DNA of 64,000 bases, taken from Thioalkalivibrio sp. K90mix. Lineage in GTDB: Bacteria; Pseudomonadota; Gammaproteobacteria; Ectothiorhodospirales; Ectothiorhodospiraceae. The stretch lies in contig NC_013930.1 in the NCBI RefSeq assembly GCF_000025545.1, positions 1 through 64,000 of the forward strand, written 5' to 3'. The position numbers were made by a program, and so were the translations under genes. Positions 8,095-38,159 of the stretch are shown here, piece after piece; the first letter of the stretch is position 1, and every line of letters starts with the position of its first letter. The notes beneath the pieces are model-generated. The model did no database searches. It worked only from the letters and a program-made list of their open reading frames with translations, and was not told the origin of the DNA.

Positions 8095-8136
8095 AACGAC
8101 CTTTGACAACACCAAAGGCGTCGCGGGCTCTAATCT
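8095..8136 (+). promoter_or_regulatory. AACGACCTTTGACA motif upstream of a secreted-protein gene
   Basis: AACGACCTTTGACA (8095-8108) recurs exactly at 24507-24520. A TCTAAT/TAATCT box follows at 8129-8136, and TAATAC at 24541 in the other copy. The 20-base gap from TTGACA is long for sigma70, so it may instead be an activator site. Both copies precede genes of the same secreted family. Confidence 0.4.
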
Positions 8137-8177
8137 CAAGAGACCCTGGAAGAACCCCCTGGACAAGGAGCGTCCTG

Positions 8178-8615
8178 ATGACGATCAATTACCGTACTCC
8201 CCTGAACGCCCTGGCGGCCGCCGGCATGGCGCTGACCCTGGGCGGGGCCGCCTTCGCCGAAAGTGCCAACTACCGCGTCATCCTTCCCGACACCGCGAGT
8301 TTCGTGGCGACCGGTGGGGGTGGTAAAGAAGATCTCTGTGATGGGACGAGCGTCGAGGAGGTCTGGAAGTTCGAGGGGCATTCCAGCAGCGTCTACGGCG
8401 TCGCCGTCGACGGCGCCGGGAATGTGTACTCCGGGAGCCGTGACAACACCGTCCGCAAGATCGACCCGGACGGGAGCGAGGTCTGGAGCTTTACCGGGCA
8501 TTCCGATCGGGTCTACGGCGTCGCCGTCGACGGCGCCGGGAATGTGTACTCCGGGAGTCTTGACAACACCGTCCGCAAGATCCGCCAGACCAGTGACACG
8601 TGCACATCGGGCTAG
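8178..8615 (+). CDS. secreted protein with two propeller-like repeats (RVILPDT family)
   Basis: A signal peptide (residues 1-27, ending A-A-F-A-E) is followed by the motif N-Y-R-V-I-L-P-D-T, shared with four other secreted proteins in this window. Residues 70-140 hold two near-identical repeats of 40-41 residues (G-H-S...V-Y-G-V-A-V-D-G-A-G-N-V-Y-S-G-S-x-D-N-T-V-R-K-I), WD40- or SMP-like blades. Two blades cannot close a propeller, so this is either a truncated member or assembles with others. AAGGAG precedes the ATG at 8178. Confidence 0.75.
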   Translation: MTINYRTPLNALAAAGMALTLGGAAFAESANYRVILPDTASFVATGGGGKEDLCDGTSVEEVWKFEGHSSSVYGVAVDGAGNVYSGSRDNTVRKIDPDGSEVWSFTGHSDRVYGVAVDGAGNVYSGSLDNTVRKIRQTSDTCTSG

Positions 8616-9993: not shown

Positions 9994-10384
9994 TCGCGAC
10001 AGCCGTGAGGTGGAAGTGGCCCGGCACCAGGTACTCGGCTTGCTCGAGCGCAGCCGAAAAGCCCTGGGAGAGGTCCGCAAGGAGCTGACCGACGCCGTCC
10101 ACGGGCCGTTGTTGCGGGACGGGAAAAACCGCGACGAAGGCGGACTCGACTTCTATCCCGATCCGGACCACATCTACGGGTGCGTCTGGCGGGCGTACCA
10201 TGCGATCAAACGACCGGTGCTCCCGGAGGCGGACTGGCGCGAGCGTGCCGCGCGGGCCTTGTGCCGCCAGCAAGATGACGACCCGGACGCCCCCGGCGAG
10301 TCGGACAATCACCAATACCGGTGGCAGGACTACCTGGAAATGGTGAAGGTCGTCGAACGGGAACATCAGGGCACGCGCGCATGA
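9920..10384 (+). CDS. hypothetical 154-residue protein
   Basis: Family not recognised. The first 75 residues are predicted helical and charged, possibly coiled coil; the rest is more compact with several aromatic residues. AAGGAAC lies just upstream of the ATG. It overlaps the next gene at ATGA, indicating coupling to the membrane protein at 10381. Confidence 0.65.
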   Translation: MERVTKEHVEEWVENLVRASRQAGDRDSREVEVARHQVLGLLERSRKALGEVRKELTDAVHGPLLRDGKNRDEGGLDFYPDPDHIYGCVWRAYHAIKRPVLPEADWRERAARALCRQQDDDPDAPGESDNHQYRWQDYLEMVKVVEREHQGTRA

Positions 10385-10914
10385 ACACGGAACCCCCTAT
10401 CGTCATCCGCCCGGCCATCCGGGCTTTCTACGGACGCCTGCTGATCGGCGCCGCCCTGCTGGCGGGCGGTCTGTATGCCCCGACCGCCGCCGCCGGCCTG
10501 GCGCGGCAGGAGTCGCAGCTGCTGCGGGATCTTGCCGGGGCCAGCTTCAACCTCCCCGGTCTGGGTGAAACAGGGATTGGCACCCTGGGGATGCTCCTGG
10601 GAATAGCCGGGGCCCTGGGCATGGCCGCCTGGATCATGCTGTCCCGGTACTACTACACCTGGCAGATGCACCCGGAGTACCTGCACGCCTCGGTCGGACT
10701 CGTCGCCAACAAGCAACGGGCGCTGTATTACGACAATGCTCGGATTCCAACCATCCGCCGCGGCATCATCGACCGGCTGCTCATGGTGGGGTCGCTGGAG
10801 GTGTCGTCCAGTGGCGCCGGCGGTGAGGGTGATTTTCGCATGGTCCGGATCTCCAACCCGGTCCGCCTCAAGCGCTCGGTGATGGAACGCATCGAGGCAG
10901 CCCGAGGCCGGTAG
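10381..10914 (+). CDS. membrane protein with a bacterial PH-like (bPH2) domain
   Basis: Two hydrophobic segments (about residues 18-40 and 65-93) are followed by a cytoplasmic module of about 80 residues: a Y-x-W-Q strand, then V-G-L-V...R-A-L-Y-Y-D-N-A-R-I-P-T-I, then G-S-L-E-V-S-S-S-G and a final strand and helix. This is the layout of YdbS/DUF304 bPH2 membrane proteins. Function unknown. It is coupled to the preceding gene by ATGA. Confidence 0.7.
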   Translation: MNTEPPIVIRPAIRAFYGRLLIGAALLAGGLYAPTAAAGLARQESQLLRDLAGASFNLPGLGETGIGTLGMLLGIAGALGMAAWIMLSRYYYTWQMHPEYLHASVGLVANKQRALYYDNARIPTIRRGIIDRLLMVGSLEVSSSGAGGEGDFRMVRISNPVRLKRSVMERIEAARGR

Positions 10915-11090
10915 TGGACCTGGAGAGCTGACAGCCACCGGCCCGAAGGCCAGTGAATACCGGTCGGAACCGGACATGGGTCCATCCATCTGACGTTTGC
11001 AACCACGGCCCCATCGGGACGTGAGATCCATTGGACCCGAACAGGGATAGCCTGCCACAGGCCCTGGCCTATGACGAGCGCCCTATAAAC

Positions 11091-11158
11091 TCGACAGATC
11101 CGCGGCGTTCGCTACGCTGAAGCCTCATTCAACGGAACCGGCCCGGAGCCGGCAGGAG
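11091..11158 (+). promoter_or_regulatory. TCGACA-family promoter with leader hairpin
   Basis: TCGACA (11091-11096), 16 bases, TACGCT (11113-11118). The leader carries the hairpin CCGGC-CCGGA-GCCGG (11138-11152) directly touching CAGGAG. The same layout recurs at 12558, 14061, 14589, 19979, 20721, 28501 and 29898. Confidence 0.65.
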
Positions 11159-11165
11159 AATCATC

Positions 11166-11405
11166 ATGGAACTGCGAATCAAAGGCACGGATACCCTGCT
11201 CAATGGCACCAAGGAAGTGATCGAAGGCGTCGCCCTGGTGCAAGGCATCGAGGAAGACGGTACGCCGATCTATGTAGGGGAAACCCAGGTCCACTGGAAT
11301 TCCCAACGGACCGTCCTGGAAGATGGCAAGGTGATCTGGGTCACCGAGGATGGCAAAGAGATCGCCCTCAACCCTGACCAAATCGAGAACGTCCCGGACG
11401 AATAG
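11166..11405 (+). CDS. hypothetical 79-residue acidic protein
   Basis: Family not recognised. It is beta-rich with repeated short strands (ELRIKGTDTLLNG, GTPIYVGETQVHW, KVIWVTEDGKEI), which suggests a small barrel or sandwich. It is the first gene behind a TCGACA promoter and hairpin leader. Confidence 0.7.
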   Translation: MELRIKGTDTLLNGTKEVIEGVALVQGIEEDGTPIYVGETQVHWNSQRTVLEDGKVIWVTEDGKEIALNPDQIENVPDE

Positions 11406-11418
11406 GAGGGGTGTCGCA

Positions 11419-11685
11419 ATGTACAGCAATAGCCATAACCGACCAGCATACAAGCGGGCCATTGGCCGCTTCCTTGTTCGGCCCTTGGTCGTTCCGGTCC
11501 TGGATTCACTAACGCTGTGGTCGTTCCGGTGGAAGCGCCTGAAAAATCCTGAAGATCAAGGCGGCAGGGTTGGTTCGGGCGTCTATTACCTCGACCCTCA
11601 GACGGGGCACCACCACCGGCGTGATTGTGCCGTGAGGATTTGCGAAGCGCGGGTGCGGAACACGAAGAACGCCCGCGGGCGCTGA
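11419..11685 (+). CDS. hypothetical 88-residue strongly basic protein
   Basis: Family not recognised. Arg/His-rich, with one short hydrophobic patch (FLVRPLVVPVLDSL) and a C-terminal H-H-H-R-R-D-C...C pair. ATAGGAGGGG precedes the ATG at 11419, 13 bp after the previous stop codon. Confidence 0.55.
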   Translation: MYSNSHNRPAYKRAIGRFLVRPLVVPVLDSLTLWSFRWKRLKNPEDQGGRVGSGVYYLDPQTGHHHRRDCAVRICEARVRNTKNARGR

Positions 11686-13212: not shown

Positions 13213-13602
13213 GTGTCTCAAACGAACACTGAAAGCCCCTACCGCAACGTCCTTGTTGTTGTGCTGCCCGAGCGCCACATGCTGCCGCCGGATGGGGACG
13301 AATTCAAAGGGGATGATAGCGCCATCCCGGGCGTCTACAGCGTAGACGGCATCCCGGCTCGTGTGACCGACGATGAGGCCGCATACTACGCGCTGGAGAC
13401 GTTCCATGAGAGTCATGGGATCGCCTTCGTTGAAGACCTCGCGATCTTCGTGCTCGACACGAAGGCCGGTCGGCTGCTGAGCGAGGATGAAGAACCGACC
13501 GAGTGCGAGTCGATCGGCGGTGTGTCGTGCGAGAAAACCGGGACTGACCTTCCGCCGTGGCTCGTGACCCTCCTGCTCCGCGAACTGGACCCGCTGGGCT
13601 GA
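13213..13602 (+). CDS. hypothetical 129-residue protein, tandem paralog of the product at 13673
   Basis: Family not recognised. It shares with the product at 13673 the order L-V-V-V-L/L-I-L-A-T, D-D-[SR]-[AS]-[IV]-P-G-[VA]-Y, D-[GI]-I-P-[AR], D-E-x-A-Y-x-A-L-E-x-F-H and a V-x-D-T-x-[AT]-G-R-[LI]-L strand. The GTG start follows AAGAGG and a CGGCCCGAAGCCGGC hairpin. Confidence 0.65.
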   Translation: MSQTNTESPYRNVLVVVLPERHMLPPDGDEFKGDDSAIPGVYSVDGIPARVTDDEAAYYALETFHESHGIAFVEDLAIFVLDTKAGRLLSEDEEPTECESIGGVSCEKTGTDLPPWLVTLLLRELDPLG

Positions 13603-13672
13603 ACGAACGCCAGCGGCCCCATCCCACACAGTCACCGCGCCCCGGGGTCGGGCGCGAGGAGCGTTCCTGTTG

Positions 13673-13993
13673 ATGCCCGATACCTCTGAGCAGTCCAACC
13701 GATCACTCCTGATCCTGGCGACTGCGCACGGAGACATCACCGAACCGGACGACCGCTCAGTACCTGGCGCGTACCGGATCAGCGACATTCCCCGTGCGCT
13801 GCCCGACGAGGATGCGTACCTGTGGGCGCTGGAGGCCTTTCACCGCACCGTCGCGGTTGAACGACTGGAGGACTTTGATCTGAGTGTCGTGGACACCGGG
13901 ACGGGGCGCATCCTGCCGGCAGGGGTTGGGGCGGCGCCCGGCGGGGACGCCACCTGTCGCAAGGTGGCACAGCAACCAGTTACCAGGATGTAG
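13673..13993 (+). CDS. hypothetical 106-residue protein, tandem paralog of the product at 13213
   Basis: Family not recognised. Same small domain as the preceding gene, with a shorter C-terminus. The ATG at 13673 (TTG at 13670 is possible) follows GAGGAGCG. A degraded third copy with an internal deletion lies at about 19724-19960, together with the following promoter. Confidence 0.65.
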   Translation: MPDTSEQSNRSLLILATAHGDITEPDDRSVPGAYRISDIPRALPDEDAYLWALEAFHRTVAVERLEDFDLSVVDTGTGRILPAGVGAAPGGDATCRKVAQQPVTRM

Positions 13994-14060
13994 CACGCTT
14001 CGAGTTGGGGTGAGACACGGGGAATGCCCGTCAGAAACGGCGATCACACGCTCCAAAAAA

Positions 14061-14135
14061 TCGACAAGACCACGCGATTCGCTACGCTGGAGCCTCATTC
14101 AACGGAACCGGCCCGAAGCCGGTAGGAGAATCCCC
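14061..14135 (+). promoter_or_regulatory. TCGACA-family promoter with leader hairpin
   Basis: TCGACA (14061-14066), 16 bases, TACGCT (14083-14088), hairpin CCGGCCCGAAGCCGG, then AGGAG. Nearly identical to 19979-20053, including the upstream bases, so the two are duplicates. Confidence 0.65.
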
Positions 14136-14516
14136 ATGGAAACGATCAATGACATCAGCCCGGCCATCCTCATCGTCGGCAACCCTGTCGATGGTATGAG
14201 TCATATCGGCCCGTTCGCGGATGCCGAGGAGGCCAACGAATACGGCGACGGCCTGGATGAGGACTGGTGGGTGGTCACCCTGGCCGCACCCGAAATCGAG
14301 GATGCCGAGGAAACGGTCCTCACATTCCAGACGCGCCTCACCTCCGAGGATATCCCGGACGACTTCGAGGTGCGGCCGCTGCAACCGGGCGACGAGGCCC
14401 GCGACAAGGTGACCTGCCTGTCCTGCGGCCTGAGTTGGGACAATGCGGTAGCAACCGGAATCACGCCGACCCCGGCGGCGCGCTGCCCGTTCGAGCCGTT
14501 CCATCGGGGCGAATAA
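14136..14516 (+). CDS. hypothetical 126-residue acidic protein with C-terminal CxxC
   Basis: Family not recognised. An acidic, beta-rich N-terminal domain of about 90 residues is followed by C-L-S-C-G...C-P-F-E-P-F-H, possibly a small zinc site. Behind its own promoter and hairpin leader. Confidence 0.7.
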   Translation: METINDISPAILIVGNPVDGMSHIGPFADAEEANEYGDGLDEDWWVVTLAAPEIEDAEETVLTFQTRLTSEDIPDDFEVRPLQPGDEARDKVTCLSCGLSWDNAVATGITPTPAARCPFEPFHRGE

Positions 14517-14588
14517 CCCCCGAGTTCTCGAGAAACATCCGAGCGAGAGCCCACCGCAAGGCGGATCGACGGAGGGCGGGAGAAGAAA

Positions 14589-14665
14589 TCGACAACCCGC
14601 CCTCCTCGGCTATTCTGGAACCATACCCATCACGGATACCGGCCCGAAGCCGGCAGGAGAATACC
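14589..14665 (+). promoter_or_regulatory. TCGACA-family promoter with leader hairpin
   Basis: TCGACA (14589-14594), 16 bases, TATTCT (14611-14616), hairpin ACCGGCCCGAAGCCGG, AGGAG, ATG at 14666. Confidence 0.65.
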
Positions 14666-15037
14666 ATGAGTCATTCAGTCGATAAGGACCGCATCTTCAC
14701 CCTCGACTCGGGGGAGTTCGACGACTTTGGTGTGGACGTGTTCGCCCGCGCGCTGGAGGATTTGGACCTGTTCGCGCTGGGCGAGGCCTACGTGAACGCC
14801 GTGGCAGCCGGAGAAGCCCCGGCCCCTGGCATGACCCCGAATATCGGGTTCGCCGCGTGGCTGGAGGCGCAGGGCAAGATCGAGCGCCTGTCCGTCGATC
14901 GCCACCACACCGGTCGCACAGGGACGTTTATCCTGGCCCCGGGGCGCGATCTCGAGATGGCGACCCGCAAGGGGGAACGCGCCAAGGCGGACGCAGAGTA
15001 TCCGTATGCCGAACACGAGGGTCTGCACAAGGATTGA
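14666..15037 (+). CDS. hypothetical 123-residue protein
   Basis: Family not recognised. Acidic helical first half, then a basic segment with a short beta hairpin (RTGTFILAPGRD). No signal or membrane segment. First gene of a unit that probably runs to 16682. Confidence 0.7.
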   Translation: MSHSVDKDRIFTLDSGEFDDFGVDVFARALEDLDLFALGEAYVNAVAAGEAPAPGMTPNIGFAAWLEAQGKIERLSVDRHHTGRTGTFILAPGRDLEMATRKGERAKADAEYPYAEHEGLHKD

Positions 15038-15103
15038 GGTGATGCCGGAACGGCCAACAGCTAAGACCTTGGAACCCCATCGATCCACAGCGGAGATTCG
15101 ACC

Positions 15104-15445
15104 ATGAACAAGGAAGTGACCCGCAAGCAGGGGCCGCATGAAGTTCGACTGGAACGCACAGCGGCCGGGATCAACCTGCATCTCACCACCAATGGCGAGG
15201 ACTGGTATTCCGCCCCGGTCGACCGTGACACGGTCGCTCTGCTGGAGGGCGCGTCCCGGACGTTCGTGCGAGCCCTGGACGAGAGCCCCGCGGTTCAGCG
15301 GGCCCGGGAGCTGGTCGCCAGTCTCGAAGAAATGGAGGCCGAGAACCCGGATCTGCTGGAATACGTGCGGCACACCAGTCCCGGGCAGCGCATCGTCGAG
15401 CGACTCGATGCCTCGGCGCGAATGAAATCATCCAGGGAGGGGTAA
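15104..15445 (+). CDS. hypothetical 113-residue protein
   Basis: Family not recognised. A beta-rich start of about 45 residues is followed by two charged helices. The ribosome binding site is weak. The next gene starts 5 bp after its stop codon, so they are probably cotranscribed. Confidence 0.65.
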   Translation: MNKEVTRKQGPHEVRLERTAAGINLHLTTNGEDWYSAPVDRDTVALLEGASRTFVRALDESPAVQRARELVASLEEMEAENPDLLEYVRHTSPGQRIVERLDASARMKSSREG

Positions 15446-21954: not shown

Positions 21955-22336
21955 CTCGTATGAACCGCGCTCTTGGGTGTGCTGCAAGAACGGCTGCACC
22001 CCAGTGGAGCAGAAAACGCCCCACTGGAATGGTCACTCACAGAAAGGCTGTTGTCACTCGAGATCTGACGTGGCCGGGTCCGCAGAAGCGGATAGACAGC
22101 ATGCCACGCTTAATGCCTCGCGCCGTTATAGAACCGGGAACAGAAGAAACGGACGAGCTGAAAAACGACTTTGACCAAATGGCCCATGGTGTGCAGATTG
22201 GCGAGACAATCAATGGACAGAGGACGTCCGTATAAAACTCGATCACCAGGAAAGTCAGGCCCAAACGTTCCACTCCGCGCCGAAGCACCGCGTCATAACT
22301 AACCCGCTGGCGGTCACCGTCACCGCAGCGTTCCTT
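21955..22336. other. gap without a convincing gene
   Basis: Holds one weak frame (21960-22235) with no ribosome binding site and unlikely composition. From about 22175 the frame of the secreted gene at 22337 is open and encodes a plausible signal-peptide core, but it has no ATG, GTG or TTG. Confidence 0.5.
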
Positions 22337-23206
22337 ATGGTGGGTATAGGGAAGGTATCCGCTGGGGAATTCAGGATCGTGCTACCCGAAACCGCCGGCT
22401 ACACCAGCGCAGGGTCGGGGGCGAATGGGGCTCCGGAAGCCGCCGCAGAGGATTGCTACGACCCCGACAATATCGGCCAGGTCGGGGAATGGTCGGGTTG
22501 TGAGGGCATGCTTATCGTGGATGACCACATGCTGCGCGAAGCCGCCAGTAACGCGATCGGGATCAGGGGAGACGACTCCTTCAATGTCGCCCCAGGCGAT
22601 GCCTATGCGCCGGAGAACCTGACGGAGACCTTTACGTTCGAGCAGGACGGCCGGGATGTCTTCACCGGTCAGGTTGTCAATATGTCCAGTCTATTCCGTG
22701 ATTCTGACATGGATCTGGATATTGGCTACTGGGACACCTCCCGCGTTGAGAGTATGAGCCACATGTTCCGGGGTACTACGATGTTCAATCAGGACATCGG
22801 GAGCTGGAACGTGACCAGTGTCATCACCATGGAACGGATGTTTGATAGCGCAGAAGCATTCAATCAGGATATTGGTGGCTGGGATATGTCCAATGTCCGG
22901 GTGCTGTCCTCGATGTTCCGTTACTCCGGTAGCGTGTTCAATCAGGACATCGGCGGATGGGACACTTCGAACGTCGAAGCCTTCAATCATATGTTCCAGC
23001 GCAACAACGCATTCAATCAAGATATTGGCGGGTGGGATGTCTCGAGCGCGCGCGATGATTCGGACTTCGCGCGCATGTTTGAGAATACCGACGCATTCGA
23101 CCAGAATCTCTCGTGCTGGGATGTGGAGCACATCGAGGAGGTGCCAACGGTCTTTGGCGTCGGTGTGGACGACAGGCCTCGGTGGGGTGAGTCTCCGCCG
23201 TGCTGA
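22337..23206 (+). CDS. secreted BspA-like (DUF285-type) repeat protein, RVILPDT family
   Basis: Residues 90-270 carry repeats of about 25 residues of the BspA/DUF285 surface-protein type: F-N-Q-D-I-G-x-W-[ND]-[VTM]-S-x-V-x-x-M-x-x-M-F. Near the N-terminus is E-F-R-I-V-L-P-E-T, the motif shared with other secreted proteins here. From ATG 22337 the signal peptide is too short; the same frame upstream reads T-N-P-L-A-V-T-V-T-A-A-F-L, a proper signal core, but lacks a standard start codon. The true 5' end may be frameshifted. Confidence 0.75.
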   Translation: MVGIGKVSAGEFRIVLPETAGYTSAGSGANGAPEAAAEDCYDPDNIGQVGEWSGCEGMLIVDDHMLREAASNAIGIRGDDSFNVAPGDAYAPENLTETFTFEQDGRDVFTGQVVNMSSLFRDSDMDLDIGYWDTSRVESMSHMFRGTTMFNQDIGSWNVTSVITMERMFDSAEAFNQDIGGWDMSNVRVLSSMFRYSGSVFNQDIGGWDTSNVEAFNHMFQRNNAFNQDIGGWDVSSARDDSDFARMFENTDAFDQNLSCWDVEHIEEVPTVFGVGVDDRPRWGESPPC

Positions 23207-24506: not shown

Positions 24507-24546
24507 AACGACCTTTGACAGGCGCGCTCGGGTGGCCGCGTAATAC
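24507..24546 (+). promoter_or_regulatory. AACGACCTTTGACA motif upstream of the LRR gene
   Basis: AACGACCTTTGACA (24507-24520) and TAATAC (24541-24546), the same motif and spacing as before the secreted gene at 8178. Confidence 0.4.
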
Positions 24547-24583: not shown

Positions 24584-27500
24584 ATGCATCAGAAGGCCCA
24601 ATCCCCCCAGCTGCTGAAAAAACCGCTCGCGTTGGCGATCGGCGTGGTGCTGGCGAGCGCCTACCTCACCTCTGTATCGGCCGGGGAATCCGGTATCCGG
24701 GTGGTGCTACCCGACACCAGCGACAAGGTGGATACCGCCGGAATGACCCCGACCCCGGGGGATCCGGAGGTCTGGAACTCCTACGCCCACTCCGAAGGCT
24801 TTTCGACGGTCGGCGACTACGCCACGGATGATGTGGCTTTCAATAGTGAATCGGCCACCTGCCTGCCGATGGGTCCGGGCTGCGAAGACTTCAATGACTA
24901 CTTCCCCGAGCCGAACCCCGCGGGTGACCTGCGGTTCAACAGCAACGACCTGGTGAGTACGACCGGGCTGGAGACCATCGAGACGGTGGGGGGTGAACTG
25001 AACCTCAGTTTTAATGATCTGACCGACGTGGATGGGCTTTCGGGGCTGCGTGAAGTGGGCGGGACACTGAACCTGCGGGGCAACGACCTGACCGACCTGC
25101 GGGGACTGGGCAGCCTGCACACGGTGGGCGGTGCGGTCTTCCTGGACCGAAACGACCTCCAGACGCTGGACGGTCTGGAGAACCTGGAGGAGACGGGCAG
25201 CATTTACCTGTACGGGAACGACCTGACGGATATCTCGGCCCTGAGCGGGCTCCGTCGCGCGGGTGGCATCTTCCATCTGTACGACAACCCCCGCCTGGCT
25301 GACCTGTCGCCGCTGTCGAACATCGAAGACGATGTGGCCTTCCAGGGCTCATTCGGCGGTCAGGTCCGCATCGACGCCGGCATCCATGAGCGCGCGGGCT
25401 TCGTGCCGATCCAGGGCGGCGCCCTGTGCCAGGACCACAACGCCGATGCGTTCAACGATAGCTACGCCCAGCAGGCCGAGGTGTGCGCGGATGATACGAT
25501 GGAGGCCTCGGCCACCTGGAACTCCTACGCCCACTCCGAAGGCTTTTCGACGGTCGGCGACTACGCCACGAATGATGTGGCTTTCAATAGTGAATCGGCC
25601 ACCTGCCTGCCGATGGGTCCGGGCTGCGAAGACTTCAATGACCACTTCCCCGAGCCGAACCCCGCGGGTGACCTGCTGTTCAACAGCAACGACCTGGTGA
25701 GCACGGCCGGGTTGGAGACCATCGAGACGGTGGGGGGTGAACTGAACCTCAGTTTTAATGATCTGACCGACGTGGATGGGCTTTCGGGGCTGCGTGAAGT
25801 GGGCGGGACACTGAACCTGCGGGGCAACGACCTGACCGACCTGCGGGGACTGGGCAGCCTGCACACGGTGGGCGGTGCGGTCTTCCTGGACCGAAACGAC
25901 CTCCAGACGCTGGACGGTCTGGAGAACCTGGAGGAGACGGGCAGCATTTACCTGTACGGGAACGACCTGACGGATATCTCGGCCCTGAGCGGGCTCCGTC
26001 GCGCGGGTGGCATCTTCCATCTGTACGACAACCCCCGCCTGGCTGACCTGTCGCCGCTGTCGAACATCGAAGACGATGTGGCCTTCCAGGGCTCATTCGG
26101 CGGTCAGGTCCGCATCGACGCCGGCATCCATGAGCGCGCGGGCTTCGTGCCGATCCAGGGCGGCGCCCTGTGCCAGGACCACAACGCCGATGCGTTCAAC
26201 GATAGCTACGCCCAGCAGGCCGAGGTGTGCGCGGATGATACGATGGAGGCCTCGGCCACCTGGAACTCCTACGCCCACTCCGAAGGCTTTTCGACGGTCG
26301 GCGACTACGCCACGAATGATGTGGCTTTCAATAGTGAATCGGCCACCTGCCTGCCGATGGGTCCGGGCTGCGAAGACTTCAATGACCACTTCCCCGAGCC
26401 GAACCCCGCGGGTGACCTGCTGTTCAACAGCAACGACCTGGTGAGCACGGCCGGGTTGGAGACCATCGAGACGGTGGGGGGTGAACTGAACCTCAGTTTT
26501 AATGATCTGACCGACGTGGATGGGCTTTCGGGGCTGCGTGAAGTGGGCGGGACACTGAACCTGCGGGGCAACGACCTGACCGACCTGCGGGGACTGGGCA
26601 GCCTGCACACGGTGGGCGGTGCGGTCTTCCTGGACCGAAACGACCTCCAGACGCTGGACGGTCTGGAGAACCTGGAGGAGACGGGCAGCATTTACCTGTA
26701 CGGGAACGACCTGACGGATATCTCGGCCCTGAGCGGGCTCCGTCGCGCGGGTGGCATCTTCCATCTGTACGACAACCCCCGCCTGGCTGACCTGTCGCCG
26801 CTGTCGAACATCGAAGACGATGTGGCCTTCCAGGGCTCATTCGGCGGTCAGGTCCGCATCGACGCCGGCATCCATGAGCGCGCGGGCTTCGTGCCGATCC
26901 AGGGCGGCGCCCTGTGCCAGGACCACAACGCCGATGCGTTCAACGATAGCTACGCCCAGCAGGCCGAGGTGTGCGCGGATGATACGATGGAGGCCTCGGC
27001 CACCTGGAACTCCTACGCCCACTCCGAAGGCTTTTCGACGGTCGGCGACTACGCCACGAATGATGTGGCTTTCAATAGTGAATCGGCCACCTGCCTGCCG
27101 ATGGGTCCGGGCTGCGAAGACTTCAATGACCACTTCCCCGAGCCGAACCCCGCGGGTGACCTGCTGTTCAACAGCAACGACCTGGTGAGCACGGCCGGGT
27201 TGGAGACCATCGAGACGGTGGGGGGTGAACTGAACCTCAGTTTTAATGATCTGACCGACGTGGATGGGCTTTCGGGGCTGCGTGAAGTGGGCGGGACACT
27301 GAACCTGCGGGGCAACGACCTGACCGACCTGCGGGGACTGGGCAGCCTGCACACGGTGGGCGGTGCGGTCTTCCTGGACCGAAACGACCTCCAGACGCTG
27401 GACGGCCTGGAGAACCTGGAGGCGACGGGCAGAATTTACCTGTACGGGAACGACCTGACGGATATTTCGGCCCTGAGCGGGCTGCGTCGCACTGGCAACC

Positions 27501-28480
27501 GCTTCCATCTGTACGACAACCCCCGCCTGGCCGATCTGTCGCCGCTGTCGAACATCGAAGACGATGTGGTCTTCCAGAGCTCATTCGGCGGTCGGGTCCG
27601 CATCGACGCCGGAATCCATGAGCGCGCGGGCTTCGTGCCGATCCAGGGCGGCGCCCTGTGCCAGGACCACAACGCCGATGCGTTCAACGATAGCTACGCC
27701 CAGCAGGCCGAGGTGTGCGCGGATGATACGATGGAGGCCTCGGCCACCTGGAACTCCTACGCCCACTCCGAAGGCTTTTCGACGGTCGGCGACTACGCCA
27801 CGAATGATGTGGCTTTCAATAGTGAATCGGCCACCTGCCTGCCGATGGGTCCGGGCTGCGAAGACTTCAATGACCACTTCCCCGAGCCGAACCCCGCGGG
27901 TGACCTGCTGTTCAACAGCAACGACCTGGTGAGCACGGCCGGGTTGGAGACCATCGAGACGGTGGGGGGTGAACTGAACCTCAGTTTTAATGATCTGACC
28001 GACGTGGATGGGCTTTCGGGGCTGCGTGAAGTGGGCGGGACACTGAACCTGCGGGGCAACGACCTGACCGACCTGCGGGGACTGGGCAGCCTGCACACGG
28101 TGGGCGGTGCGGTCTTCCTGGACCGAAACGACCTCCAGACGCTGGACGGCCTGGAGAACCTGGAGGCGACGGGCAGAATTTACCTGTACGGGAACGACCT
28201 GACGGATATTTCGGCCCTGAGCGGGCTGCGTCGCACTGGCAACCGCTTCCATCTGTACGACAACCCCCGCCTGGCCGATCTGTCGCCGCTGTCGAACATC
28301 GAAGACGATGTGGTCTTCCAGAGCTCATTCGGCGGTCGGGTCCGCATCGACGCCGGAATCCATGAGCGCGCGGGCTTCGTGCCGATCCAGGGCGGCGCCC
28401 TGTGCCAGGACCACAACGCCGATGCGTTCAACGATGACTACGCCCAGCAGGCCGAGGTATGCGAGAGCGTTGAGGGGTAG
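24584..28480 (+). CDS. 1298-residue secreted protein with five 248-residue leucine-rich repeat blocks
   Basis: A signal peptide (residues 1-38, ending S-V-S-A-G-E) precedes the shared motif I-R-V-V-L-P-D-T. The rest is five tandem blocks of 248 residues. Each has a Cys pair (C-L-P-M-G-P-G-C), six leucine-rich repeats of about 20 residues (L-N-L-S-F-N-D-L, L-N-L-R-G-N-D-L, V-F-L-D-R-N-D-L, I-Y-L-Y-G-N-D-L types) resembling receptor-L/LRR surface domains, and a second Cys pair (A-L-C-Q-D-H...E-V-C). It is probably exported and exposed; ligand unknown. AAGGAG precedes the ATG. Confidence 0.85.
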   Translation: MHQKAQSPQLLKKPLALAIGVVLASAYLTSVSAGESGIRVVLPDTSDKVDTAGMTPTPGDPEVWNSYAHSEGFSTVGDYATDDVAFNSESATCLPMGPGCEDFNDYFPEPNPAGDLRFNSNDLVSTTGLETIETVGGELNLSFNDLTDVDGLSGLREVGGTLNLRGNDLTDLRGLGSLHTVGGAVFLDRNDLQTLDGLENLEETGSIYLYGNDLTDISALSGLRRAGGIFHLYDNPRLADLSPLSNIEDDVAFQGSFGGQVRIDAGIHERAGFVPIQGGALCQDHNADAFNDSYAQQAEVCADDTMEASATWNSYAHSEGFSTVGDYATNDVAFNSESATCLPMGPGCEDFNDHFPEPNPAGDLLFNSNDLVSTAGLETIETVGGELNLSFNDLTDVDGLSGLREVGGTLNLRGNDLTDLRGLGSLHTVGGAVFLDRNDLQTLDGLENLEETGSIYLYGNDLTDISALSGLRRAGGIFHLYDNPRLADLSPLSNIEDDVAFQGSFGGQVRIDAGIHERAGFVPIQGGALCQDHNADAFNDSYAQQAEVCADDTMEASATWNSYAHSEGFSTVGDYATNDVAFNSESATCLPMGPGCEDFNDHFPEPNPAGDLLFNSNDLVSTAGLETIETVGGELNLSFNDLTDVDGLSGLREVGGTLNLRGNDLTDLRGLGSLHTVGGAVFLDRNDLQTLDGLENLEETGSIYLYGNDLTDISALSGLRRAGGIFHLYDNPRLADLSPLSNIEDDVAFQGSFGGQVRIDAGIHERAGFVPIQGGALCQDHNADAFNDSYAQQAEVCADDTMEASATWNSYAHSEGFSTVGDYATNDVAFNSESATCLPMGPGCEDFNDHFPEPNPAGDLLFNSNDLVSTAGLETIETVGGELNLSFNDLTDVDGLSGLREVGGTLNLRGNDLTDLRGLGSLHTVGGAVFLDRNDLQTLDGLENLEATGRIYLYGNDLTDISALSGLRRTGNRFHLYDNPRLADLSPLSNIEDDVVFQSSFGGRVRIDAGIHERAGFVPIQGGALCQDHNADAFNDSYAQQAEVCADDTMEASATWNSYAHSEGFSTVGDYATNDVAFNSESATCLPMGPGCEDFNDHFPEPNPAGDLLFNSNDLVSTAGLETIETVGGELNLSFNDLTDVDGLSGLREVGGTLNLRGNDLTDLRGLGSLHTVGGAVFLDRNDLQTLDGLENLEATGRIYLYGNDLTDISALSGLRRTGNRFHLYDNPRLADLSPLSNIEDDVVFQSSFGGRVRIDAGIHERAGFVPIQGGALCQDHNADAFNDDYAQQAEVCESVEG
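24773..28480 (+). repeat. five 744-bp tandem repeats inside the LRR gene
   Basis: Units start at about 24773, 25517, 26261, 27005 and 27749. Units 2 and 3 look identical; units 4 and 5 share variants in their second half (for example A-T-G-R-I for E-T-G-S-I). The pattern implies recent unequal exchange. Confidence 0.9.
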
Positions 28481-32801: not shown

Positions 32802-34013
32802 TTACCGGTCCGGGCTGAAGGCGCAGCGGATCCGATGCCGCTCACCCCAATCATTCGGAGGATCGATCCGGCTTTCCAGAACGCTCCCATCCTCCAGATC
32901 CAACGCGTATAGGGCGTCCTCACCATCGAATCGATGACCGCCCGGAACCTCTGTGGTGCTCCAGTAGTGAGAAACCGAAGAGGCACCAAAATCAACCGGA
33001 AGCTGGTCACGGTTTTCCCACAGAAGCTGAAGCTCGGGAAGGTTGGGGTGGTGCCACCCGCCGCCAAACTTAAGTCTGCATTCATTGCCCGTAATGTGAA
33101 TGCCGGGTATAGCGCTTGTGTTTGACGTACTCGGGAAGCTCGCGCCACTCCTGCTAAGGTGGTAGTGGAGAACAGGACCACCCCGAGCCGCGTAGAAGAT
33201 CCGGCGGCCATCGACTGATCCGGCGTACATCAGTTCTCGATATTTCTCGAGACCTCGGAAAACACCACGGTCTCCAACAGAGGCGTTTTCGGGGTCCAGT
33301 CGATCATCATGTGCCCCGTACGGCTCGGCGTGGCGCACACAGAAGGTCCGGGCATTAGAGCCTTTACGGTGTGAATCTACCTCGCCATTATTCGCGGTGC
33401 TCCAAATGCGGCCGTATGTCGTCTCCATTGGTTCGGAGATCCAGGCTCGCATGTGCGTAACAGTATCCATGAGCTCTCGGAATTCGGCGGCCGAAATTTC
33501 AAAGCTATCGATCTCCGAAGAGGAAGGTAGAAACCAGTCGGTATGCCCATGTTCGTCCATGTCTTCGCAGAAATGAACCGGCGTTTTTTGGGTGCGCCAG
33601 CTCATACCCATTATCTTGTGCCGAAGCTCGCCATCCCCGTTTGCCACTGAAGGAAGCCTCGGAAAGCTCGAGATTACGCCTTCCGTCCCCCATGCTCCGA
33701 AGGTCATGGTAGACGCGACATAGATCGCCCGCCCGTCCGAGTGCGTTCCTGCAAAGAAACTGCCGTCATCGCAGGTGTCCCCAGGTTCATCGCAACCAGA
33801 AGGAAGAGAGGGATTAGAGGACGAGGCCACCTGCTGTGAGGCGGCGGAAATCACAACGCGGTGGCCCGCGTTTTCAGCAGACAGGGAGTGCGAAGCCCCC
33901 ATCAAGGCCACCAGGGAGAGCTGTAACGCAATGGCAGCTCGGTTTCGGTTGACCGAAGGTTTCGAGAAAGACCGAAGCCTTCCTCCGAAAAAGCGCGCCC
34001 GAGGGCGGTTCAT
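32802..34013 (-). CDS. secreted protein with DUF1566-like domain(s), RVILPDT-like N-terminus
   Basis: An N-terminal basic region and hydrophobic core ending S-L-S-A-E-N are followed by G-H-R-V-V-I, aligned with the motif of the other secreted proteins here. Two DUF1566-like units follow: one around H-T-D-W-F-L-P-S-S-S-E-I-D...R-I-W-S-T...F-C-V-R, and one around G-W-H-H-P-N-L-P-E-L...Y-W-S-T-T-E...R-I-R-C-A-F. The ATG at 34013 fits AAGGATG spacing better than 34022. Export is inferred from the signal. Confidence 0.7.
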   Translation of the reverse strand: MNRPRARFFGGRLRSFSKPSVNRNRAAIALQLSLVALMGASHSLSAENAGHRVVISAASQQVASSSNPSLPSGCDEPGDTCDDGSFFAGTHSDGRAIYVASTMTFGAWGTEGVISSFPRLPSVANGDGELRHKIMGMSWRTQKTPVHFCEDMDEHGHTDWFLPSSSEIDSFEISAAEFRELMDTVTHMRAWISEPMETTYGRIWSTANNGEVDSHRKGSNARTFCVRHAEPYGAHDDRLDPENASVGDRGVFRGLEKYRELMYAGSVDGRRIFYAARGGPVLHYHLSRSGASFPSTSNTSAIPGIHITGNECRLKFGGGWHHPNLPELQLLWENRDQLPVDFGASSVSHYWSTTEVPGGHRFDGEDALYALDLEDGSVLESRIDPPNDWGERHRIRCAFSPDR

Positions 34014-34113
34014 GTCATTCATCCTTGAAGAGATCGATAAAACTGATAACGCGCATCGGAGACTACAGGGGGCTCCAAGGGTCGTTCAAACCACAAGCCC
34101 GATGATTCAGAAA

Positions 34114-36361: not shown

Positions 36362-36823
36362 ATGAAACATTCGCGCCTGTATTGGGTATCAGTCATAGCC
36401 GCCACGGTAATGATGCTCTTGCTGGCTTCGGGTCACGCCGTCGCCTCGGAGGAGTATCGAATCATCCTCAACACGAACGACGTCGTGGAAACCCGAGATA
36501 CCTTCAAGTTGGGGGATCGCGGGGAGCGGACGAATGTCGAGTGCGAGGAGGCAGGCGGCGAGGTCTTTGAGAGCGATGACGGCCAGGTGATGTGCCGCTT
36601 CAACCGCGCCTCATGCCCGTCGGGATGGTCACTCAAGAACGGCTGGCGCTCGTACAGTGCGAATTACTGCGAAAGCTCGCCGACCTGCCAAAATCCGTGC
36701 TCAGCAAGCGGGACCCCCTTCTCCGAGAATGCCACCCAGCATTCCTGTGGTTACTCCACCGGTCCCGGGCCCTGTTACGCACGGACCTGCTACGCGACCC
36801 GGGAGGATGTGGGGTGTCATTGA
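36362..36823 (+). CDS. secreted Cys-rich protein, RVILPDT-like N-terminus
   Basis: A signal peptide (residues 1-29, ending A-V-A-S) is followed by E-E-Y-R-I-I-L-N-T, the variant motif of the secreted family. The C-terminal half has about a dozen cysteines (C-P-S-G-W, Y-C-E-S-S-P-T-C-Q-N-P-C, C-G-Y...C-Y-A-R-T-C-Y...G-C-H), implying a disulfide-rich extracellular domain. AAGGAGG precedes the ATG. Ligand unknown. Confidence 0.75.
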   Translation: MKHSRLYWVSVIAATVMMLLLASGHAVASEEYRIILNTNDVVETRDTFKLGDRGERTNVECEEAGGEVFESDDGQVMCRFNRASCPSGWSLKNGWRSYSANYCESSPTCQNPCSASGTPFSENATQHSCGYSTGPGPCYARTCYATREDVGCH

Positions 36824-37077
36824 TTCACAGCGTCATGCTCACCCTGAAGCAGGCACTGGCGGCGATACTGGCATTAGCCGCCGCCGTGGGATTCGCTGCC
36901 GTGGCGCTTTGGGTGGGTGTTCAGATCATGGGATCTGTCGAAACCGCTGGCTGGATCGCCTTTTTCGCCACGGCCGGCGGGCTTTACACCACAATGCTTA
37001 TCGCCCTTGTCGGCCTGGCGATGGTGGCGACAGCCGTGTCGCACTGGAACTGGGGTGACGACGGAGCGAGCCGATGA
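36814..37077 (+). CDS. two-helix membrane protein
   Basis: GTG start with GGGAGG 7 bases upstream, overlapping the previous stop codon. Two hydrophobic helices (about residues 12-36 and 45-75). Overlaps the nuclease gene by ATGA; the three genes 36362-38159 form a coupled envelope/secretion unit. Confidence 0.6.
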   Translation: MSLIHSVMLTLKQALAAILALAAAVGFAAVALWVGVQIMGSVETAGWIAFFATAGGLYTTMLIALVGLAMVATAVSHWNWGDDGASR

Positions 37078-38159
37078 TGCACCTTCTGCGACGCGGTGCC
37101 TTCGCGATCCTGCTGATAGTCCTACTTCCGTCCGCCGCGCTAGCAGACCTGCGCCTGGCAAGCTGGAACATCCAGCACCTCGGCTGGAACGTCGGGAAGG
37201 ACTACCCGGCCGTCGCACGCATCGCGGCGCAGTTCGACTTTCTGGCGATCCAGGAGGTGATGAACGCCGAGGGGATTTACCGCCTGCGTGACACCCTGGA
37301 AGACGCGACCGGTGCCGAGTGGTCCGTGTTGTACTCCGACGCGCTGGGCCGCAACACCTATCGGGAAAAGTACGCGTTCCTGTGGCGGGAGGCCGCAGTG
37401 GAGTATGTCGGTGGAGCGCTCACCTACATCGACGAGGCCGACCGGTTTGCCCGTGAGCCGTTCTCCGCGGTGTTTCGGTCCCGGGGCACGGATCAGCATT
37501 TCCTTGCCGCCACGGTTCACATCACCTACGGCGACCGTGTGGCGGATCGTGTCGAGGAGATCGAGGCACTGCGGCGGTACTGGGACTGGCTGGCGGACGT
37601 GATGCCGGAGTACGCCGGCGAACGCATCCTGTTCGGCGACTTCAATCTGCCGCCGCACCACGACGGTTGGGCCTCGATGCGGGCGGTGGCCGAACCCCTG
37701 GTGACCGAGGGCGCCACCACCCTATCCACGCATGACCGTCGCTACGCGAATCTGTACGACAATCTCTGGGTGCCGAAGGATCACACGCTACCCCTGGGGG
37801 ATGCCGGCATCCTGCCCTTCCCCGTCGTTCTGAGTGAGGTAACCGGGGTGTACTGGGATCACGAAAAGGCCCGCGACCGGGTCTCCGACCATGCCCCGGT
37901 GTATGTACTGTTCGAAGGAAACACGCTGCACGACGCGGTGGTCGCGGAGATCGCCGATCAAGAAGCGGGCTGCATCGATCTCAATCGCGCCTCGGTGAGC
38001 GAACTCACCGCCCTGCCCCATATTGGCGAGGCACGAGCGGAGGCGATCAAGGACGGGCGGCCGTGGAATGCCGTGCGAGACCTGAAAGAGATTCGCGGGA
38101 TCGGGGCTGGGCGTCTGGAGGAGATAAAGGCGAGAGGGGAGGCCTGCATCGAGCCTTGA
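37074..38159 (+). CDS. secreted endonuclease/exonuclease/phosphatase-fold nuclease with C-terminal helix-hairpin-helix
   Basis: A signal peptide (residues 1-24) precedes an EEP domain: L-A-S-W-N-I-Q-H (Asn), I-Q-E-V (Glu metal ligand), H-F-L-A-A-T-V-H-I, G-D-F-N-L-P (Asp/Asn) and S-D-H-A-P-V (catalytic His). Residues 300-361 carry a ComEA-like HhH unit (C-I-D-L-N-R-A-S-V-S-E-L-T-A-L-P-H-I-G...I-R-G-I-G), which by family binds DNA. It probably degrades DNA outside the cytoplasm. Confidence 0.85.
   Translation: MMHLLRRGAFAILLIVLLPSAALADLRLASWNIQHLGWNVGKDYPAVARIAAQFDFLAIQEVMNAEGIYRLRDTLEDATGAEWSVLYSDALGRNTYREKYAFLWREAAVEYVGGALTYIDEADRFAREPFSAVFRSRGTDQHFLAATVHITYGDRVADRVEEIEALRRYWDWLADVMPEYAGERILFGDFNLPPHHDGWASMRAVAEPLVTEGATTLSTHDRRYANLYDNLWVPKDHTLPLGDAGILPFPVVLSEVTGVYWDHEKARDRVSDHAPVYVLFEGNTLHDAVVAEIADQEAGCIDLNRASVSELTALPHIGEARAEAIKDGRPWNAVRDLKEIRGIGAGRLEEIKARGEACIEP

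Follow-up and report, generated by a model that had tools for sequence, protein, structure and literature searches.

The secreted proteins TcpF and CofJ leave the cell via type IVb pili: their N-terminal segment docks in clefts of a trimeric minor pilin that sits at the tip of the pilus. Signals of this type require an aromatic residue, their motifs differ between families, and cross-binding between the two systems was not observed (PMC9565799). Binding modules can also be part of the pilin. Modular pilins are widespread, e.g., PilB of S. sanguinis (PMC8179133), and PilX2 of Saccharibacteria carries a propeller on a type IV pilus minor pilin, the loss of which lowers host binding (PMC12206443).

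According to PMC3368412, Thioalkalivibrio sp. K90mix has a chromosome of 2.74 Mbp and, in addition, a linear plasmid of 240 Kbp. The source genome consists of two contigs with 2,985,056 bases; the window, i.e., the whole stretch of 64,000 nt that was analyzed, represents bases 1–64000 of the plasmid contig C2 (240,256 bases). A motif found on nine C2 proteins appears similar to the TcpF/CofJ signals in that it is a short mature N-terminal segment with an aromatic residue near its start, it is diverged between bacterial families, and its replicon also encodes a type IVb-like pilus. It differs in that TcpF and CofJ are each the one cognate secreted protein of their pilus, whereas K90mix has nine candidates with one motif. 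In addition, the K90mix motif is followed by a hydrophobic strand, pilus binding is here a proposal, and there is no sequence likeness to FxxxYxSxS, SxGGAFT or YGF. By analogy, the nine proteins may use the motif in a TcpF/CofJ-like mode, to dock on a type IV pilus of the plasmid and be exported by it; we consider the chances of this reading, with its presumed binding and export, to be about even. Among the titles and abstracts of an open-licence library, no paper on a pilus signal common to several cargos or on the pili of C2 came up.

Nine proteins with a common post-signal motif

The motif consists of an aromatic residue, His or Ile, then Arg and [VI][VI][LI]. The first-pass annotation had placed it directly after the signal peptides of five proteins in the window. 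Translation shows it at these positions, straight behind signal-peptide-like stretches, in 8178, 24584, 34022 (minus strand, given there as 34013) and 36362. The motif of 22337 is also where it was placed, but the signal peptide of this protein is unproven because there is no ATG, GTG or TTG in frame upstream of the hydrophobic stretch. A strict seven-residue pattern, [RKH][VIL][VIL][LI][PSN][DENA][TAS], was run over six frames of all C2. It has six matches, which are four of the five proteins above and new sites at 87561 (minus) and 231227; by eye, a signal-like stretch precedes each of the six. A looser scan of C2, made with a crude hydrophobicity filter and with many rows lacking a signal-like protein removed by eye, adds motif sites at 36458 (the fifth protein of the first-pass annotation), 195405 and 217403 (minus). 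The gene starts of the family are thus 8178, 22337, 24584, 34022 (minus), 36362, 87654 (minus), 195276, 217499 (minus) and 231119. The residue before Arg is Y, F or H in eight of the nine and Ile in 24584. All nine have the signal-like stretch, that of 22337 without a canonical start, with cleavage sites placed by eye or by a crude predictor. Profile A1, built from all nine and recovering them by construction, has no further match at E ≤ 1 in the whole genome, chromosome included.

Held-out tests were used to evaluate the family. Each member was left out in turn and ranked among the 3,604 ORFs of 40 aa or more in the six frames; 8178 and 87654 were both excluded from training whenever either of them was ranked. 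With signal and motif together, all nine members rank 1 of 3,604, with E-values from 1.2e-8 to 0.18; taken singly some are weak (0.1 for 22337 and 0.18 for 24584). With the mature side alone, eight members have ranks of 1, 1, 1, 2, 1, 1, 4 and 1, and 36362 ranks 56. With a 15-residue position matrix, eight of the nine are among the five best of about 480,508 positions; 36362 is unranked, apparently because one residue is missing after RIIL. Signal plus motif discriminates better than the motif alone in the held-out ranking. These ranks show that the motif family is real on plasmid C2 and that 36362 is its least secure member. A count of the aromatic-[RK]-strand arrangement after predicted signals on three plasmids (7/53, 3/66 and 1/38) was set aside, as it rests on a crude and unreliable predictor with misplaced sites and missed starts.

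Payload modules and shared 5' DNA

The modules that follow the motif had been described as unrelated, which holds in part: three of the nine are WD40/PQQ propellers and two have Lcl_C matches, one of them below cut-off. Propeller matches are found in 8178, 87654 and 231119. The protein at 8178–8615 (plus strand, 145 aa) has two WD40-like blades only and carries the motif YRVILPDTASFVATG at 8271–8315. The protein at 22337–23206 (plus) has DUF285 (BspA-type) repeats and the motif FRIVLPETAGYTSAG at 22370–22414; its hydrophobic stretch starts ahead of the first canonical start codon. An LRR/Receptor-L array of a 1298 aa protein is encoded at 24584–28480 (plus), with the motif IRVVLPDTSDKVDTA at 24695–24739. 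Bases 24772–28463 of this gene form about five direct repeats of 744 bases each with 96–99% identity. The Lcl_C (DUF1566-like) protein of 406 aa is at 32802–34022 (minus) and has the motif HRVVISAASQQVASS at 33819–33863 (minus). Protein 195276 has an EP-repeat spacer and the sub-cut-off Lcl_C match by Pfam, and 217499 has no Pfam match. Searches of plasmids with the LRR protein gave one weak Mollicutes record and nothing useful, and those with the Lcl_C protein gave nothing useful.

A DNA block at 8157–8345 (plus), which comprises the RBS, signal peptide and motif of 8178, has a counterpart at C2:87490–87677 (minus) in 87654. The two are alike over approximately 190 bases and the likeness ends where the payload starts. 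Upstream of the genes, the motif AACGACCTTTGACA is exact only before 8178 and 24584, which bears out the earlier claim that these two have it in common. The upstream element AACGACCTTTGA is at 8095–8106 (plus) for 8178 and at 24507–24518 (plus) for 24584. Related elements are AACGACTTTGA at 22164–22174 (plus), 173 bases before 22337, and AACGACCCTTGG at 34075–34086 (minus), 64 bases before the start of 34022. The looser pattern AACGAC-N(1-2)-TTG[AG], which was made after seeing four of its sites, occurs nine times on C2, whereas ten random sequences that keep its dinucleotide steps contain 1.3 on average. Five of the nine sites are 64–173 bases upstream of 8178, 22337, 24584, 34022 and 231119, where the distances for 34022 and 231119 are measured to the starts given here and not to those of the crude gene caller. 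One site outside the family precedes the pilus ATPase gene 209523 and overlaps the end of the previous gene, two stand before the gene that ends at 221684 (minus) and the gene that starts at 222088, and no gene begins within 400 bases of the site at 145117 (minus). The confinement to the plasmid, the upstream element (five of nine genes) and the shared DNA block fit a functional unit.

Type IV pilus systems on C2 and related plasmids

The first-pass annotation had suggested a look for secretion genes elsewhere on the replicon, and Pfam analysis reveals two type IV pilus systems on C2, T4P-B and T4P-A. T4P-B (184046–194160) has TcpQ, secretin, PilO, ATPase, platform protein and PilS genes at C2:184046–192693, all above cut-off (PF10671, PF00263, PF06864, PF00437, PF00482 and PF08805), followed by a large prepilin-like gene, 192898. 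The complete set from TcpQ to PilS is as in type IVb operons of the R64/TCP type. The Shufflon_N domain (PF04917) is a feature of R64-type PilV. Unlike these operons, the prepilin-like 192898 lacks Shufflon_N (no match at E ≤ 10), and genes of secreted proteins are found downstream, one of them with the motif. The 192898 protein has no family match and no convincing match among PDB sequences, none being H-type-lectin-like; TcpB and CofB end in a domain of this type. The motif gene 195276 is two genes downstream of 192898, after 194198 and 194670. These two (194198–194554 and 194670–195221; L011:10198–10554 and 10670–11221) encode related small proteins, both with an SxxIRxxLG stretch close to the N-terminus and with Cys modules of the form C...GG...C, and possibly represent a second cargo type.

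T4P-A (204937–219093) comprises genes for two ATPases, a platform protein, a secretin that includes an OmpA domain, and short pilin-like proteins; the latter start with MFSLII or MVNLIL and have no Pfam match. Minor-pilin-like proteins of C2 are those at 192898, 212232, 213223 and 214194. Motif gene 217499 (minus) sits among paralogues of T4P-A genes. Two of the nine motif genes are thus in or beside the pilus clusters, which make up about 11% of C2, and seven are elsewhere; by binomial arithmetic this placement is not significant on C2 alone (~0.26). Type II secretion of the motif proteins was considered and is unsupported: GspD (TIGR02517) has no match over cut-off in the genome, although a diverged GspD could escape this search. 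The sub-cut-off matches are a chromosomal PilQ beside a shikimate-kinase-like frame (by eye) and the plasmid secretin.

The ends of the C2 record (1–2093 and C2:236911–240256) are identical over approximately 2.1 kb, the right-end copy being interrupted by ~1.25 kb of inserted DNA that contains transposase-like frames. C2 is possibly circular with overlapping record ends, in contrast to the linear form of the published record.

The exact motif was not found to be enriched in related genomes, which the first-pass annotation had named as a result that would speak against its proposal. A1 has only four matches, all in the genus, in 95 other relatives at E ≤ 0.01. These have E-values of 0.004–0.008, lie chiefly over the signal part, and cover just positions 5–38 or 17–38. 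In 368 other genomes of the class there are three matches at E ≤ 1e-3, none convincing; these (L068–L070, E 2.7e-4 to 8.3e-4) were rejected by eye as outer-membrane-like, unrelated and ABC ATPase proteins.

The pilus system itself has relatives. A search with the T4P-A secretin among 47 family genomes (own included) shows one other secretin match, which lies on a 301,689-base contig of genome G038; in G009 the query matches the OmpA part only. The T4P-A ATPases of G038 and C2 are 60% identical. The contig in G038 also has identical ends (4.4 kb). Its protein g266 has DUF285 repeats, is 39% identical to 22337 and has the mature start SYKILVPVSDSS, with the order signal, aromatic residue, Lys and strand; a T4P-A-type pilin follows 13 bases after this gene. 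Protein g222 (EYVLRISIQNAS) has InlB-type repeats and is 29% identical to 24584 over ~290 residues, and g234 has the mature start NNLITIVPLTGEGYTA. The K90mix profile does not recover these three proteins, and a wider profile, A3, does so by construction. Two paralogues of g222 (G038:C2 200169–201749 and 291065–292099, both minus) are called as frames without a 5' signal peptide, one having a signal-like stretch in another frame just upstream. The mutual paralogues g191 and g271 (mature DETSYCFSV and QDERYCLVL) were left outside the family.

On the T4P-A contig of Vreelandella massiliensis (164,040 bases), a single DUF285 protein is encoded; its mature start is SDDPMVFRYYSTEF, and A3 misses it. 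Another protein, v39, with FRYF after the signal and adjoining a minor pilin, was judged by eye to be a beta-barrel and rejected. The layout of signal, aromatic residue, basic residue, hydrophobic strand, Gly-acidic linker and repeat module thus appears, by eye, to recur across plasmids with different letters, much as the published signals vary from family to family; this is a resemblance and not proof. The T4P-A ATPase (E ≤ 1e-80) is found on 18 plasmid records, e.g., L027 and L028, from several hundred kb upward, in Variovorax, Pseudomonas, Vibrio, Bosea and others; it is 39–56% identical, and the genes, where read, are mostly annotated as hypothetical. No motif protein was seen near T4P-A in the Pseudomonas, Variovorax and other loci read. 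DUF285 is present on 61 plasmid records, and no record with both DUF285 and the T4P-A ATPase is among the matches listed, which comprise 40 of the 61.

A pattern scan for T4P-A-type pilins in 84,980 species genomes reveals six loci. Macromonas has two such pilins (656 and 651 aa), which combine an Ig domain with seven RCC1 repeats, i.e., modular pilins with a fused RCC1 propeller (L051:9294–11264 and 13252–15207, minus). The two in an Agitococcus MAG, of 587 and 504 aa, have weak Ig-like matches (L052:4540–6303, minus, and 10001–11515). The fused propellers in Macromonas and Saccharibacteria show that pili of this kind present repeat modules. In the modular pilins and tip adhesins PilB and PilX2, too, type IV pili present binding modules, including seven-bladed RCC1 propellers, but the modules of K90mix are separate secreted proteins with a signal peptide and not pilins.

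Protein 36362 and the reading of the motif

The gene at 36362–36823 (plus) encodes a secreted Cys-rich orphan of 153 aa with a mature start near SEEYRIILNTNDVV and the motif YRIILNTNDVVETRD at 36455–36499. It has YRIIL and the post-signal position in common with the family, yet it fails both motif-only tests. Its sole Pfam match is far under cut-off, and searches of PDB sequences, 72,556 plasmid records and 368 further genomes of the class gave no relatives. An AlphaFold2 model from the single sequence has a mean pLDDT of 45.7. It is possible, though we lean the other way, that 36362 is a secreted Cys-rich protein outside the family with a chance likeness in YRIIL. The rank of 56 on the mature side, the missing rank with the 15-residue matrix and the absence of the upstream element before the gene all agree with this. 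Against it, 36362 ranks 1 of 3,604 (E 0.0074) when held out with signal and motif, and C2 has its C-x(3)-GG...C-x-F arrangement in just two further proteins, 194198 and 194670, which are encoded beside motif gene 195276. This pattern was picked after seeing the three proteins, and BLAST shows no significant likeness between them. The adjoining gene at 37074–38159 encodes a secreted DNase with a helix-hairpin-helix domain and without the motif. Judged by domains and organism, it is the salt-tolerant DNase of K90mix described in PMC4486849; a homologous frame is present on the Vreelandella T4P-A plasmid. A search of plasmids with the DNA of 36362–38159 gave nothing useful.

The earlier proposal is thus supported in part: a sorting or assembly tag is still the reading of the motif that we favor, and the two pilus systems on the same plasmid are a candidate partner, but the exact motif is absent from the other genomes searched. 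A common 5' end, made up of the upstream element, RBS, signal and first mature residues, could also result from a signal-peptide cassette that was spread by duplication and recombination, has no role in binding a partner, and leaves the payloads in the periplasm or has them exit otherwise. The block shared by 8178 and 87654 does show the 5' end moving or being converted as a unit, and the better discrimination by signal plus motif agrees with such a cassette. Nevertheless, motif residues are kept among members whose signal peptides are otherwise different, and the mature side alone recovers eight of the nine members, so that we regard this explanation as rather unlikely. The motif might instead be a tag for a surface partner other than a pilus, the payloads being anchored by an outer-membrane or surface-layer protein to which the strand is added. 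LRR, DUF285 and WD40 modules are typical of surface proteins in general, and seven of the nine motif genes lie outside the pilus clusters. However, an unsystematic look at C2 revealed no such partner, and there is no motif protein on the chromosome at E ≤ 1, which makes a chromosomal partner less likely; this explanation appears improbable.

In the pilus docking model, the signal peptide would take each motif protein across the inner membrane. Cleavage would leave a mature N-terminus in which a few residues precede Y, F, H or I, followed by Arg and a short strand of hydrophobic residues, and this N-terminus may dock at the pilus tip, on a minor pilin. Extension of the pilus through the secretin would then bring the payload, be it a propeller, LRR, BspA-type repeat, Lcl_C or Cys-rich domain, to the surface, where it would be displayed or released. 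A broader and more tentative proposal is that C2 encodes a multi-cargo system for pilus secretion and display, in which one short N-terminal address, spread as a DNA cassette and in part controlled by a common upstream element, would bring many unrelated binding modules to the pilus tip; related plasmids would have the same scheme with a diverged address of their own, or modules fused to pilins.

If pilus docking is correct, nine candidate cargos with one signal would make the signal readable by comparison. It would also show how a pilus can gain binding functions with the pilin unchanged, and this soda-lake chemolithotroph would be a harmless model of pilus-dependent secretion.
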